Source of the DNA: Fischerella sp. CENA71
GTDB taxonomy: Bacteria; Cyanobacteriota; Cyanobacteriia; Cyanobacteriales; Nostocaceae
Direction of reading: 5' to 3'
Assembly: GCA_024239075.1 (NCBI GenBank)
Contig: JANBVI010000057.1
Span: 62,001 to 126,000, forward strand
Length of the DNA: 64,000 nt
The position numbers were made by a program, and so were the translations under genes. This document shows, one piece after another, positions 13,428-38,612 of this stretch; the stretch's first letter is position 1, and every line of letters begins with the position of its first letter. The notes beneath the pieces were generated by a model that was not told the DNA's origin, made no database searches, and was given only the letters and a program-made list of their open reading frames with translations.

Positions 13428-14534
13428 ATGAAAAGAATTATCGCTCAATGTATTAAAGAATTAGTTCAATTTCGTCGCGATCGCCTGACTTTAGCGTTAG
13501 CATTTTTACTACCATTTCTCACGCTGTTGATTTTTGGATTTGCAATTCGCTTGGAAAGTAAAGATATTCCCTTAGTTGTTCAGGATTTTGACCATACTAA
13601 TCTTAGTAGCAGCTATATTGAGCGGTTGTATGCCACAAATCAGTTTATACCCCACAAATGGTCTGGTACAGATCCGGTACAGGATGCAATTGATCGGGGT
13701 ATCGCTAAAGTAGCTGTGATTATTCCTCCCGAATTTAGTCGAGATATTCAAGGTGGTAAAAATACTCAAGTTCAAGTATTAATTGATGCCACTGATGTCA
13801 ATAATGCCCGTGTCATCAAAAATAGCATTGAACAAGTAACTAATTTTTTCATGCGGGATCAAGGATTGCTACCCGCTACCAGTAGCATTACTCCCAACAT
13901 GCGTCTTTGGTTTAATCCTGGTCGATTGGAATCATTGTATATTGTGCCAGGAACTTATGCTGTTGTATTGTGGATTTTTCCCTCTTTGCTAAGTGCGATC
14001 GCGATGGTGCGAGAAAAGGAAAAAGGTACAATCTTGCAAGTCTATACTTCTAGTATTAGCGCCACTGAATTACTACTAGGTAAAGGACTAGCATACCTGT
14101 TGATTGCCATTACTGAAGCATTAATCGCGATGATCCTTGGTTCGGTTGTTTTTCAAGTGGGCTTAGTCGGCGATCCTACAACTTTAATCATTGGCTCTAT
14201 TTTATTTATTGCCGATAGTGTATTGTTTGGTTTGTTATTAGGAGTGCGTAGTAGTAATCAAAATGCAGCCGTTCAAGGTGTTTCTTTAATTGGATTTATT
14301 ACTGCTTTATTACTCTCTGGTTTTATTTATCCACTCAACAATATTCCTTTTCCACTTTCCCTTGTTCCTAATGTTGTTCCGGCTCGTTATTACATTGATA
14401 TCACTCGTGATGCTTTTGTACGGGGGACAGGATGGGCTGGTGTTTGGTTTGATTTAGTTATGTTGACTATATTGGGATTGATCTTTTTTAACGTCGCCCG
14501 TCGAGTTTTAAGTCGAATGCAATTATCAGATTAA
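13428..14534 (+). CDS. ABC-2 type permease (YbhS-like)
   Basis: The 368-residue protein has one N-terminal membrane segment (about 22-42, LTLALAFLLPFLTLLIFGFAI), a large extracytoplasmic domain (about 45-170), and five further segments from about 175 to the C-terminus. The motif YVVP-like stretch ESLYIVPGTYAVVLWIFPSL and MVREKEKGTILQVYTS mark the ABC-2 fold. It is the first of two permeases that would form the channel driven by the fused ATPase. It lies 59 bp after the ATPase gene and is probably in the same transcript. Confidence 0.93.
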   Translation: MKRIIAQCIKELVQFRRDRLTLALAFLLPFLTLLIFGFAIRLESKDIPLVVQDFDHTNLSSSYIERLYATNQFIPHKWSGTDPVQDAIDRGIAKVAVIIPPEFSRDIQGGKNTQVQVLIDATDVNNARVIKNSIEQVTNFFMRDQGLLPATSSITPNMRLWFNPGRLESLYIVPGTYAVVLWIFPSLLSAIAMVREKEKGTILQVYTSSISATELLLGKGLAYLLIAITEALIAMILGSVVFQVGLVGDPTTLIIGSILFIADSVLFGLLLGVRSSNQNAAVQGVSLIGFITALLLSGFIYPLNNIPFPLSLVPNVVPARYYIDITRDAFVRGTGWAGVWFDLVMLTILGLIFFNVARRVLSRMQLSD

Positions 14535-32579: not shown

Positions 32580-32773
32580 GACTTAGCAAAGCAAGGAAAT
32601 AGCTTTCAGCAGTTTTTATGAGTTTGACCATAATATGTTTTAGGGACGAAAAGCGATCGCCCCTATTACATTCTCTTCTTCTCCCTTATCCCTCACGTCC
32701 CTCTTACCAATTTTTAATTTTTAATTGATAAGTCCCCCTTGTCTTCCTTGCGGAAATTAGGTGACATTCATCC

Positions 32774-34024
32774 TTACGGCTTATTTCTCCGTCCCCTTCG
32801 TAAAGGTATCACCTCTGCTTCACTGCTTTCCCTGGCTACCCTAATCAACAACCCAGCTGCTAGTAAACTGGCAATCATCGAATTCCCACCATAACTAAAC
32901 ATTGGTAAAGGTAAACCAGTAGTTGGTAAAGCGCCTGTAGCAACACCAATGTGGAGTAACGATTGTCCTACCATCAAAATTGTTACACCGATCGCTACTA
33001 ATCTATTTATAGGATGAGTCGTTTTCAGAGCAACTATTAACCCCAAGGTTGCAAATAAACCTAACATTACCAACAGCACAATACTACCGACGAAACCAAA
33101 TTCTTCAGCAAATACAGCAAAAATAAAATCTGTGTCCTGAATTGGCAAATAAAATAGTTTTTGTTGAGAAAGTCCAAAACCAGCGCCCCAAGTACCACCA
33201 GAACCCACTGCGAGTAAACTCTGAACTAGTTGATAACCATCTCCAGTAGCGTCAGCCCAAGGATTAAGGAAGGACATTACACGTTTACGCTGATACTCTT
33301 TAATACTAATACTCAGTAATGCCAACAAAAATCCCCCAACTGCTGTTGTTCCTAAATATCTATAAGGTAAGCCAGCAGCTAAAGCAATCAGCCAAATAGT
33401 CATCCCACATAGCGCAGTTGTACTCAAGTTGGGTTGCACCAATATCCCTAAAATCACAAGACAGAAAATACCCAACCAAGTCAAACGAACACGCCAACTC
33501 AGTTGTTCCCATTGTCCAAAAACTCTAGCACTTTGCAACACCAAAAAGGGTTTAATCAATTCGGAAGGTTGAATGGGAATTGGCCCTAAAGCAATCCAAC
33601 GAGACGCATCAAAAGCTTTTTTTCCCAATCCTGGTACAAGGGTGAGAAAAATTAACCCTAGTAAGAGGAAAATAAACCAATGAGATACCCCAACAAATTT
33701 ACGTAAGGGTAAGTTCACAACAACGTTGAAGAGTATTAAAGCAACTAATACCCAAAGAAGTTGACGTTTGAAGTAGTACAGCCCATCATCCTGACGAACA
33801 TCAGCAACAGGATAAGACGCTGAAAAGAGCATGATTAAGCCTACGAACAGCCAAACCAGTGTCAACCAGCGTAACAAACGTGCCTCTAATGCCCATTCAG
33901 ACACCGAGTCATCAAATAATGGAATAAAACGGCGTAGATTCACGACTTCGATCTTTTTAAATAATGTAATTATTGTATATATCGAAATCTTTGGACGATA
34001 TATCTGAATCAAAACACTAAACAA
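32774..34024 (-). CDS. ftsW: FtsW/RodA/SpoVE family septal peptidoglycan polymerase
   Basis: SEDS proteins polymerise lipid II glycan strands, FtsW at the septum. The protein has about ten membrane segments and the family motifs GLIFLTLVPGLG, RWIALGPIPIQPSELIKPF (about 160-178), LVQPNLSTT, SGGTWGAGFGLSQQKLFYLPIQDTDF (cut: FYLP..DTDFIFAV) and the C-terminal GLPLPMFSYGGNS. The motif FSYGG and septal neighbours elsewhere favour FtsW; RodA cannot be excluded. The annotated ATG 34024 adds a 27-residue lead; GTG at 33943 (VNLRRFIPLFDD) is a likely true start, giving 389 residues. Confidence 0.88.
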   Translation of the reverse strand: MFSVLIQIYRPKISIYTIITLFKKIEVVNLRRFIPLFDDSVSEWALEARLLRWLTLVWLFVGLIMLFSASYPVADVRQDDGLYYFKRQLLWVLVALILFNVVVNLPLRKFVGVSHWFIFLLLGLIFLTLVPGLGKKAFDASRWIALGPIPIQPSELIKPFLVLQSARVFGQWEQLSWRVRLTWLGIFCLVILGILVQPNLSTTALCGMTIWLIALAAGLPYRYLGTTAVGGFLLALLSISIKEYQRKRVMSFLNPWADATGDGYQLVQSLLAVGSGGTWGAGFGLSQQKLFYLPIQDTDFIFAVFAEEFGFVGSIVLLVMLGLFATLGLIVALKTTHPINRLVAIGVTILMVGQSLLHIGVATGALPTTGLPLPMFSYGGNSMIASLLAAGLLIRVARESSEAEVIPLRRGRRNKP

Positions 34025-35500: not shown

Positions 35501-35819
35501 AACTTCTTTTAAGCATAGAGCAAACTTACTTTCATTTCTAAAACGATTGGTGAAGCTAATTGGATGAGTCTAGCGTCGAAATTTTGTAGAAGTGGGTTAT
35601 TTGTATATGCTTGATTAAGTAAGGATAAAGATGAAAGATTTTGTTTTTAACCGTTGCTTGGGTCTTGCCTGCTGGAATTTGAATTTCATCGAACTCAGGT
35701 TTATCCAGAACCAAAGCAGTTAAGCCCAACGATTTTGAGAACGGTGGAAATATTCCCTTTTGGAATTTTTACTATTGGCAAAGATAATCGACACTGTATT
35801 GTTACTAAGTGGAGAACTT

Positions 35820-38612
35820 ATGCACACGAGACTGATAAAAATACTCTTTGCACTCACTATTGAAACTATCAATTGGTTTTATCCACTGGTGTTAACTGTT
35901 ATAGCTGGGCTTCTGGAGGCTTGGCTGATTTTCAGTATTTTTCCAGAAATCAACACTCTGGTTCTAGTAGCAATATTTCCCCTACTTTACTTGTTCTGGT
36001 TGTTTCTCTTTCTTTGCCTAAGTGCATTGGGTACAACTGTTTTGTTTCGATTTTTTAATAAACCCAAATTTCTAGAAGCTAATCTTGTTGAAGATTGGCA
36101 ATTACTTATTCAATTTTCACCAACAAATATCTCGTATAAGCTAATGCTATTGATAGTGACATTCCCTTTTCTGAATTATTTTAAAATGACCCCTATTCCT
36201 TTGAGATGGCTTAGAAACCTGGTGATGCGAGCTTACGCCCCAAAGGTAAATATTGGTAAAAAATCTCTAGTACTTATATGGCCACAAGATCCTGATTTAA
36301 CATATGTTGGCAATAACGTTGTTATTGGTACTGAATGTCATCTTGTTGCTCATGCTGTCAACACATCTGATGGAAAACTTAGATATATTTCAGAACCAAT
36401 TGTAATTGGAAACAAAAGTACCATTGGTGGTAATACTAGAATCGGAATGGGGGTCAAAATTGAGGAGGAAGCGATAGTAGAAGTAGGTAGCAATGTGCTT
36501 CCATACACGCGCATAGGACGTGGCGAAATCTGGGGCGGTAATCCTGCTGTTTTTCTCCGCAAACGCAACGAATTTGCAAATCAAGCAAAACCAAAGTTTT
36601 CACAGAAGCAAATAGCTTCCTCTCAATTAAATGAAATAATTGCTAATGCTATTCGTTTGCCATTAGAAGAGATTGCTGATGATTTAAATAGCGAAAACTG
36701 TATGGCATGGGATTCCCTAGCCACAATGTCAATTGCCGCTTCATTATATGACCGTTTTTCTATTCGTGTTCCCGCCAAGGATATCTTCAAACTAAATTCT
36801 CGCAAGTCAATCGAGCATCTGATTGCTACTTATACAGATAGTAATACAGATAATAATTTTCCAGATAGTTCGGACGGTGTATCCACTCCTAACCAAGATA
36901 CTGAAATTCCCAGCAATCCAGAACTTCTCCCGCTTTACAATCCAGAAACCGTAACTCAAGCACTTGCTGATCGTTTTGGGGAATTGATGCCTCAAAGTGA
37001 TCAAAAGATTGTTATTGCTGCCAGTTTTACTGCACAACCACTAGGCTCAACTTTAGACCTCTGGTGTAGAGCTTTCGGCATTCCATTTTCAGTGGAGTTT
37101 GGTGAATTCAATCAATTGGAACAAACTCTTCTTTCTCCAGATAGCGTTTTTATGAATAATCCAAACGGGTTAAATATAGTTCTTACTCGCCCAGAGGATT
37201 TAATCTCTGATGGAGATCAGGATGGAATGATTCGAGCCAGTCAACTGTTGGACGCTATCAGTAGTTATACTGCAAATAAAAAAGGTTTGATCGTGTCGAA
37301 TTTGCCTCCAGCAGTTTCGCCATTTTTTCATGGAAAGCATCAACAAGTAGAGAAACTACGCCTTTGGTGGCAAGATCAACTAGAAAAAGTGGAAGGAATT
37401 TATGTCTTAGATTTTGCCAGGGTTGTTGAGGAAGTTGGACGACAAAATGCACAGGATGCTTCGTTTGAAGCGATCGCTCGCGCTCCCTATTCACAAATAG
37501 TTTATCAGGGACTTGGAATTGCAATGACCCGTTTGGTGCGTAGAATATTCCTTCCGGCTAAAAAAGTTCTAGCACTTGATTGCGATGGTATTCTGTGGGG
37601 AGGTGTTGTGGGCGAGGATGGTATTGATGGTATCGCCCTGAGCAATGACCATCCTGGTCGCAGTTTTCGTCTGTTTCAAGAAATGCTTCTGGAGCTCAAA
37701 GGGCACGGTATTCTTCTGGTGATAGCCAGCAAAAATGAGGAAGCAGATGTCTGGAATGTATTTGAAAGTCATCCCGAAATGGTGCTGCGACGCTCAGATA
37801 TTGCTGCTTATCGGATTAACTGGAAGGAAAAGTCTACCAATTTACGCGAACTTGCTGAAGAATTAAACTTAGGTCTAGACTCTTTCGTTTTTATTGATGA
37901 TTCTCCAGTCGAATGTTTGGAAGTGCAGACTCATTCTCCAGAGGTCACTGTTGTCGCCATGCCAAAAGAGCCAGCACATTATGTTGAAACTCTTTCTAAG
38001 CTCTGGTGTTTTGATTCTTTCACCATCACAACAGAAGACAAAATACGAACAGAATTTATGGCGCAAGAGCAACAGCGCCACCAATTGCAGCAGAGCATAA
38101 CTAGCCTTGAGAATTATTTAGAATCCTTGCAACTAGTTGTAGAAATCCGGTCTGCTGAGGAAAGAGATTTGCCACGAGTAGCGCAACTGACGCAGAAAAC
38201 CAATCAATTTAATCTTTCTTTAATTCGCCGTTCGTTATCCGAAATTCAAGACATTCAGAAATCTTGTTCTATTCTGGTGCTGAATCTGAAAGACCGCTTT
38301 GGTGATTATGGTCTTGTTGGCGTAGCCATTCTCAAGCAGGAAAACGAATCTTTGTTTATAGATACCTTGCTGATCAGCTGTCGTGCTTTAGGACGCAAAG
38401 TAGAGCAATGCTTTTTATGCAGCTTTTTTGATTTTGCCAAGCAGAAGAATTTAAAGACGATTATTGCTCCTTATTGTTCAGGTCCGCGAAACGAGCAGGT
38501 GAAAACTTTTCTTGTGAAAATGGGTTTTTCGTCAAAGCAATCAGACATTCTGGAAACTCAGGTAGCGATCGCTCCCGAAAAGCCTAAGCATATAAAAATG
38601 CTAGGCTTTTGA
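35820..38612 (+). CDS. membrane protein with LbH acyltransferase, acyl-carrier and FkbH-like HAD/GNAT domains
   Basis: From ATG 35820 (GGAG five bases upstream; a TTG 60 bp earlier is less likely) the product is 930 residues. Residues 1-80 hold membrane segments and another hydrophobic stretch is at about 107-121. Residues 140-255 form a left-handed beta-helix with hexapeptide repeats (VGNNVVIGTECHL, IGNKSTIGGNTRIG). Residues 270-340 are an acyl carrier domain with the phosphopantetheine site WDSLATMS (S299). Residues 375-760 are FkbH-like: an N-terminal region, then HAD motifs LDCDGILWGGVVGEDG (D587, D589), ASKNEEADV and FIDDSPVEC (D693, D694). A GNAT-like C-terminus (about 775-915) follows. 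FkbH enzymes load glycerate from 1,3-bisphosphoglycerate onto carrier proteins. The residue before SKN is Ala, where Cys is common. Overall product unknown. Confidence 0.85.
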   Translation: MHTRLIKILFALTIETINWFYPLVLTVIAGLLEAWLIFSIFPEINTLVLVAIFPLLYLFWLFLFLCLSALGTTVLFRFFNKPKFLEANLVEDWQLLIQFSPTNISYKLMLLIVTFPFLNYFKMTPIPLRWLRNLVMRAYAPKVNIGKKSLVLIWPQDPDLTYVGNNVVIGTECHLVAHAVNTSDGKLRYISEPIVIGNKSTIGGNTRIGMGVKIEEEAIVEVGSNVLPYTRIGRGEIWGGNPAVFLRKRNEFANQAKPKFSQKQIASSQLNEIIANAIRLPLEEIADDLNSENCMAWDSLATMSIAASLYDRFSIRVPAKDIFKLNSRKSIEHLIATYTDSNTDNNFPDSSDGVSTPNQDTEIPSNPELLPLYNPETVTQALADRFGELMPQSDQKIVIAASFTAQPLGSTLDLWCRAFGIPFSVEFGEFNQLEQTLLSPDSVFMNNPNGLNIVLTRPEDLISDGDQDGMIRASQLLDAISSYTANKKGLIVSNLPPAVSPFFHGKHQQVEKLRLWWQDQLEKVEGIYVLDFARVVEEVGRQNAQDASFEAIARAPYSQIVYQGLGIAMTRLVRRIFLPAKKVLALDCDGILWGGVVGEDGIDGIALSNDHPGRSFRLFQEMLLELKGHGILLVIASKNEEADVWNVFESHPEMVLRRSDIAAYRINWKEKSTNLRELAEELNLGLDSFVFIDDSPVECLEVQTHSPEVTVVAMPKEPAHYVETLSKLWCFDSFTITTEDKIRTEFMAQEQQRHQLQQSITSLENYLESLQLVVEIRSAEERDLPRVAQLTQKTNQFNLSLIRRSLSEIQDIQKSCSILVLNLKDRFGDYGLVGVAILKQENESLFIDTLLISCRALGRKVEQCFLCSFFDFAKQKNLKTIIAPYCSGPRNEQVKTFLVKMGFSSKQSDILETQVAIAPEKPKHIKMLGF

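Follow-up and report, generated by a model that had tools for sequence, protein, structure and literature searches.

A transmembrane beta-helix unit, an acyl carrier domain and an FkbH-type loader in one cyanobacterial protein: a possible membrane glyceryltransferase

A stretch of 64,000 nucleotides from Fischerella sp. CENA71 (the window) contains a gene for a protein of 930 amino acids in which a pair of transmembrane (TM) segments, a left-handed beta-helix (LbH) unit, an acyl carrier domain (ACP) with S299 and an FkbH domain follow each other in one chain (Table 1). The open reading frame is real, and the domain order, already claimed in the initial annotation of this DNA, was confirmed by hydropathy, NCBIfam, PF00550 and TIGR01686. 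The FkbH parts group near loaders of nonribosomal peptide synthetases (NRPS) and polyketide synthases (PKS) and the N-terminal half aligns with Pls/PosA synthetases, and because of this we propose a design in which a group is loaded, carried and transferred. According to this proposal, to which we give about even chances, the protein would be a one-chain membrane glyceryltransferase on the Pls/PosA plan. Its FkbH part would take a glyceryl group from 1,3-bisphosphoglycerate, remove the phosphate and load the glyceryl onto the phosphopantetheine arm at S299. From the ACP it would then be passed on by the membrane LbH unit, probably working as a homotrimer, to an acceptor held in the membrane, on a hydroxyl or amine group, with H178 as the likely base. 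Self-loading followed by hand-over through the LbH domain had been suggested initially; the anatomy of the protein fits this and Pls/PosA provide a precedent, while glycerate as the substrate, the chemistry, the trimer and the acceptor are what we infer.

Table 1. Features of the 930-aa gene and of the segment inserted in the host (positions in the window)
Feature	Position	Strand	Basis or remark
Inserted segment in host	35574..38607		52 bp there in congener G004
Whole gene, 930 aa, TM-LbH-ACP-FkbH	35820..38612	+	open frame without stop
TM pair and linker, residues 1-140, like TM part of one Pls/PosA unit	35820..36239	+	hydropathy, hhalign
LbH acyltransferase-like unit, residues 141-262, invariant H178	36240..36605	+	profile comparison
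Acyl carrier domain, residues 263-340, S299 in WDSL	36606..36839	+	PF00550 269-330
N-terminal part of FkbH region, residues 385-580	36972..37559	+	common to PKS/NRPS FkbH proteins
FkbH domain (HAD-IIIC with D587, D589, D693, then GNAT-like part), residues 579-905	37554..38534	+	TIGR01686

The gene starts with an ATG that has GGAG five bases upstream, and its orthologues begin at the same position. Both the carrier domain (22.9 bits, Pfam cut-off 20.8) and the FkbH domain (311.4 bits, NCBIfam cut-off 146.65) score above their cut-offs, in the order that had been predicted. The three aspartates of the HAD part are in place within the TIGR01686 match; the GNAT part, which had also been claimed, is seen only within that match, and Pfam finds no separate GNAT domain. 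Neither does Pfam find an AMP-binding match, i.e. an adenylation domain, in this protein. In the 218 genomes of the host's family, sequence matches to the first part of the FkbH region begin at about residue 389. Hydrophobic windows lie at about residues 19-44 and 34-80, and hydropathy and profile alignment together give one TM-LbH unit, not three. The host genome contains no second match to the protein, a plasmid search with the gene gave no match, and the PHROGs collection gave two weak LbH matches.

NCBIfam matches to the LbH unit (within residues 154-267) are weak and all far below their cut-offs. TIGR02353, the Pls/PosA model, gives 28.1 bits (cut-off 423.1), and TIGR04008 (WcaF O-acetyltransferase) 23.9 bits (cut-off 326.3). 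The relation to Pls/PosA was detected by profile comparison, in which residues 1-262 of 10 members were compared with six TM-LbH units from L116 and L117, the proteins above the TIGR02353 cut-off (2/31 genomes). The profile scored 98.8% over 175 columns with all six units and 97.4% over 215 columns, TM pair included, with the two third units alone. H178 is invariant in 10/10 rows and is aligned with a His that among the six units is found only in the third ones. In hhalign the LbH part alone scored 95.9% with the Pls/PosA units (E 5.6e-9). The TM part alone aligned weakly with the third units (8.2%, P=0.0042) and collinearly, residues 10-69 on 10-69; with all six units P was 0.07. Reversed profiles (two) and FtsW segments (five) served as controls and gave 0.14-0.73.

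The Pls/PosA proteins (epsilon-poly-L-lysine and delta-poly-L-ornithine synthetases) are described as holding loader and carrier in one chain, and the C-terminal region of PosA is predicted to form six TM helices and three left-handed beta-helices packed together (PMC10522769). Loader, carrier and membrane LbH in one chain are thus common to them and to the 930-aa protein, which differs in having FkbH in place of the adenylation domain and a single TM-LbH unit, at its N-terminus, instead of three. A homotrimer is suggested by this ratio of one unit per chain to three. With WcaF-type hexapeptide O-acetyltransferases the protein shares the LbH fold and a similar core sequence, and the LbH core scores higher with WcaF-type PRK10502 (39.5 bits, cut-off 192) than with NRPS_term_dom (28.1 bits), a point against the Pls/PosA reading; the 930-aa protein differs from these enzymes by its membrane helices and by having a carrier and a loader fused to it. 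Among solved structures the core is matched best by gamma carbonic anhydrases (34 sequences, best E 8.5e-10), which also counts against that reading and would be expected if the unit were another kind of LbH protein, for example gamma carbonic anhydrase-like, or a scaffold only, and no acyltransferase. However, most of these matches fall in the general C-terminal stretch of the LbH fold, and H178 is the only invariant His in the N-terminal half, while zinc in gamma carbonic anhydrases is bound by three His. The fused carrier and loader also favour acyl transfer, and we regard this alternative as very improbable.

The FkbH half was placed in a tree of 61 rows (75 domains found, less 15 duplicates, plus the window's own), rooted at midpoint for drawing only. 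The FkbH domains of 11 members of the family form one side of a branch with support 100/97, and the neighbouring group consists of 28 rows of PKS/NRPS type (96/93). Four of these 28 were scanned for domains. L034 and L005 consist of the FkbH region and a carrier, L036 of a C domain, the FkbH region, a carrier and a reductase, and L070 has two carrier domains, a sulfotransferase, C and A; the sulfotransferase, C, A and a carrier are behind its FkbH region. The layout of L070 resembles SuoB/AerB, whose FkbH has been proposed to load glycerate (PMC8609519, PMC10143770), and the FkbH homologue Tmn16 has been examined in vitro for its transfer of glyceryl to ACPs from D-1,3-bisphosphoglycerate (PMC3625739). 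Loader modules of this type (SuoB/AerB of suomilide and other aeruginosins, and the FkbH-like proteins of tetronate pathways) belong to the neighbouring clade and, like the 930-aa protein, hold a carrier in the same chain. In the latter, however, the carrier stands ahead of FkbH and not behind it (as in L034, L005 and L036), which weighs against the proposed reading; a membrane LbH unit is added, and no assembly line is found among the window proteins scanned. From these comparisons the predicted roles of loader and carrier are well supported.

The initial annotation took Ala636, which precedes the SKN motif where Cys is common, as a hint of different chemistry. Ala is indeed present and Cys is the most frequent residue over the 61 rows (Cys 35, Ala 14, Val 11, Ser 1), as also in the sole solved FkbH relative found by sequence, the uncharacterised protein BF1531 (3slr). 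But Ala, Val or Ser is found in 26/61 domains, of which 15 are among the 50 outside the 930-aa protein family, and on this ground the residue was rejected as a sign of new chemistry. All eight stand-alone FkbH proteins (about 357-391 aa) carry Ala, therefore this residue is no mark of the 930-aa protein. The same position bears on another explanation, namely that the FkbH half loads an acid other than glycerate, also derived from a phosphorylated precursor, or that the LbH unit works independently of the FkbH half with an acetyl or acyl donor (CoA or ACP). All 11 members have Ala (4) or Val (7) before SKN as opposed to Cys in 35/50 other FkbH domains, and the LbH core is also similar to CoA-dependent acetyltransferases; on the other hand, the domains with Ala, Val or Ser outside the family, stand-alone proteins included, weaken the first point, and the remaining FkbH signature is retained. 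We consider this explanation unlikely.

Of 218 genomes in the host's family, 33 match the protein at 1e-50 and 8, one of them the host, match it in full length. The seven other Nostocaceae carriers are two Scytonema, Nostoc sp. CHAB 5824, Tolypothrix brevis, two Anabaena and Calothrix rhizosoleniae; their orthologues are 65-93% identical in the N-terminal part and 73-91% over the whole protein. When the N-terminal 260 residues were used to scan 84,980 genomes of bacteria and archaea, a query that reaches close relatives only, 7 loci were returned, which are those of the same seven carriers; the carriers in a distant GC-rich genus were missed. Beyond close relatives the search covered cyanobacteria: full-length matches are present in 3/386 genomes sampled across the phylum (host, G024, G469), in 2/201 genomes of the family of G469 and in 3/42 of its genus (G469, G682 and G751), the last being 39-42% identical. 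Since the whole length recurs in two lineages (8/218 and 3/42 genomes), the protein is not a chimera of the assembly, a possibility that had been raised as grounds for refutation.

D587, D589, D693, W297-D298-S299 and H178 are invariant in 8/8 close orthologues, and the motifs WDSL, DxDG and DDxP are retained in the three members from the distant genus as well. Over its whole length the gene has a dN/dS of 0.18-0.21 in comparison with six orthologues. The carrier domain gives 0.07-0.26 with the same number of orthologues, and by domain all values are below 0.33 save for the LbH unit against the two nearest orthologues (0.44 and 0.91, where dS is 0.07 and 0.05), the TM part against locus L022 (0.36) and the linker (0.57-1.24 in 3/6 orthologues). 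Judged by these ratios, the family is under purifying selection. A decaying or non-functional fusion retained by chance could explain the patchy occurrence (8/218) and the fact that the host copy ends a few residues earlier than its orthologues, its stop codon lying at the right insertion junction; the low whole-length dN/dS and the catalytic residues retained in so distant a lineage make this hardly credible. As a separate observation, dS of the LbH stretch (36240-36605) against the two Scytonema copies is 0.05-0.07, compared with 0.19-0.42 in other domains, which would fit an exchange of this stretch or a constraint on its DNA.

In comparison with congener G004 the host has 3,034 bp extra, positions 35573 and 38608 of the window mapping 52 bp apart. 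Positions 35705-38602 match Scytonema with short gaps, and 35574-35704 lie outside that match. At the DNA level the gene shares 91.8% identity with Scytonema locus L021 and the upstream stretch 35705-35784 is 95% identical, while the nearby FtsW gene is 78% identical in DNA, the conserved TPR protein 71% and the 930-aa product 91%. No mobile element was seen by eye at the insertion borders. By this alignment evidence the gene in the host is a recent single-gene insertion and, since it was gained as one gene, it requires no neighbour of its own. The wider surroundings are also variable: in 3/4 congeners (G001, G002, G003) homology breaks off at about 34.0-34.3 kb of the window and resumes at 40.96 kb, and this variable spot (34.0-40.96 kb) contains sigma/anti-sigma genes, the nested 930-aa gene and cupredoxin-phosphoesterase genes. 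A short sequence at about 32671-32751 has dozens of partial copies in genomes of the same genus and is apparently a dispersed repeat; no repeats were found within 32600-32800 itself. In L021 (Scytonema tolypothrichoides) a 118-bp piece of the same gene (14280-14397), 90% identical to window positions 38236-38353, lies downstream of the intact copy behind a glycosyltransferase gene and is perhaps a relic of a second copy.

The other seven Nostocaceae carriers have the gene downstream of a conserved TPR gene, with hisF and ruvB ahead of it in five; in L025 and L026 these two genes are in the other orientation and further away. The TPR gene is present in 37/40 relatives searched and in the host it is on another contig, and on this ground a functional link to ruvB, hisF or TPR was rejected; the TPR site is therefore an old address and not a partner. 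The genes downstream were compared in the seven loci, two of which are on contigs that end soon after the 930-aa gene. A P450, a HAD protein and an MGT-type glycosyltransferase were considered, but none is claimed as a partner, each being common to two or three of the seven.

The gene of the distant genus is located close to a pair of type I PKS genes, one with the layout KS-KR-ACP-thioester reductase (TR; 1644-1662 aa) and the other KS-AT-DH-ER-KR-ACP. In G469 the first of these lies directly after the 930-aa-type gene in the same orientation, separated from it by about 120 bp. It is matched at 1e-100 in 5/42 genomes of the genus, and in full length in 3/42, which are the same three genomes that carry the gene; the probability of such co-occurrence by chance is 1 in 11,480 with kinship ignored. 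Kinship between G682 and G751 is close (90% identity of the PKS), so the link with PKS amounts to two independent cases. The remaining two genomes, G739 and G748, have longer PKS genes, of which both ends match at 44-49%, and are without the FkbH-fusion gene. Genes of DevA/B/C type adjoin the PKS genes in G682 and G469. DevC (312 and 305 bits, cut-off 290) and DevB (162 and 161, cut-off 129) are above their cut-offs in both, and DevA (278 and 284, cut-off 296) is just below. G751 has genes with about 90% identity to those of G682. In G469 a gene for an IS5-family transposase (L067 7080-8063) lies between two KS parts of the second PKS, which looks interrupted.

This neighbourhood could mean that the glyceryl-ACP primes the adjoining PKS as a starter, the TM-LbH part being only an anchor or having another role. 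The close spacing on the same strand in G469 and the related FkbH domains in NRPS/PKS proteins agree with such starter loading, but it leaves the Nostocaceae genes unexplained. Among the candidates scored, at most 26 per genome, the eight Nostocaceae carriers show no full-length relative of the distant-genus PKS and no PKS match at 1e-100 on the own contig of the 930-aa gene. In the window no PKS was found among the 20 proteins scanned with Pfam (18 of the 52 open reading frames of at least 120 aa, including all of at least 500 aa, and two shorter ones). The statement that no PKS is near is thus true of the scanned window proteins and does not extend to the distant genus. Invariance of H178 in the LbH unit also speaks against a role as anchor, and we find starter loading unlikely.

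If the protein is a glyceryltransferase, the PKS pair and the adjoining DevBCA-family exporter point to an envelope lipid derived from PKS as the putative acceptor in the distant genus. A similar set of genes is known from the pathway of heterocyst glycolipids (hgl), with its DevBCA exporter: reductase-ending PKS and DevA/B/C-type genes are also near the distant-genus gene. To our knowledge, no FkbH or ACP-LbH protein belongs to the hgl pathway. Export of heterocyst glycolipids is described as requiring devBCA, and HglB as containing ACP and thioester reductase (PMC8064123); for hgl islands of non-heterocystous cyanobacteria, production of a C24 1,3-diol and its glycosides is reported (PMC11804610). 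A module with KR only that ends in a reductase would be expected to yield such a 1,3-diol. In the distant genus the acceptor would probably be the lipid product of the two PKS next to the gene, carried out by the DevBCA-type exporter, and in Nostocaceae an envelope lipid already made by the host. Of the two acceptors named in the initial annotation, a membrane molecule or a polysaccharide, the former has indirect support from these neighbours in the form of a lipid and the latter is without support. A limited literature search on glyceryl transfer of the gellan type gave no gene for comparison. Of 437 papers matched by a literature search in this field, the 15 listed contain no FkbH, which is not proof of absence in print.

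More tentatively, the 930-aa protein may be a self-contained and horizontally mobile enzyme that adds glyceryl, as ester or amide, to an envelope lipid from glycolytic or Calvin-cycle 1,3-bisphosphoglycerate, with FkbH replacing adenylation. If this is true, cyanobacteria possess an unknown headgroup chemistry, which may be found on heterocyst glycolipids or on 1,3-diol lipids related to them, and the Pls/PosA plan of loading, carrying and passing on at the membrane is not bound to adenylation domains and amino acids. It would also provide a one-gene tool to place glycerate on membrane molecules and, because the gene was gained alone, its function is directly testable through this single gene. 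Small proteins with a layout like that of the N-terminal half were found at L019 1465-2118 (217 aa, with a hexapeptide match) and L020 1294-1908 (204 aa), each behind a gene that resembles those for lipid hydroxylases or desaturases.
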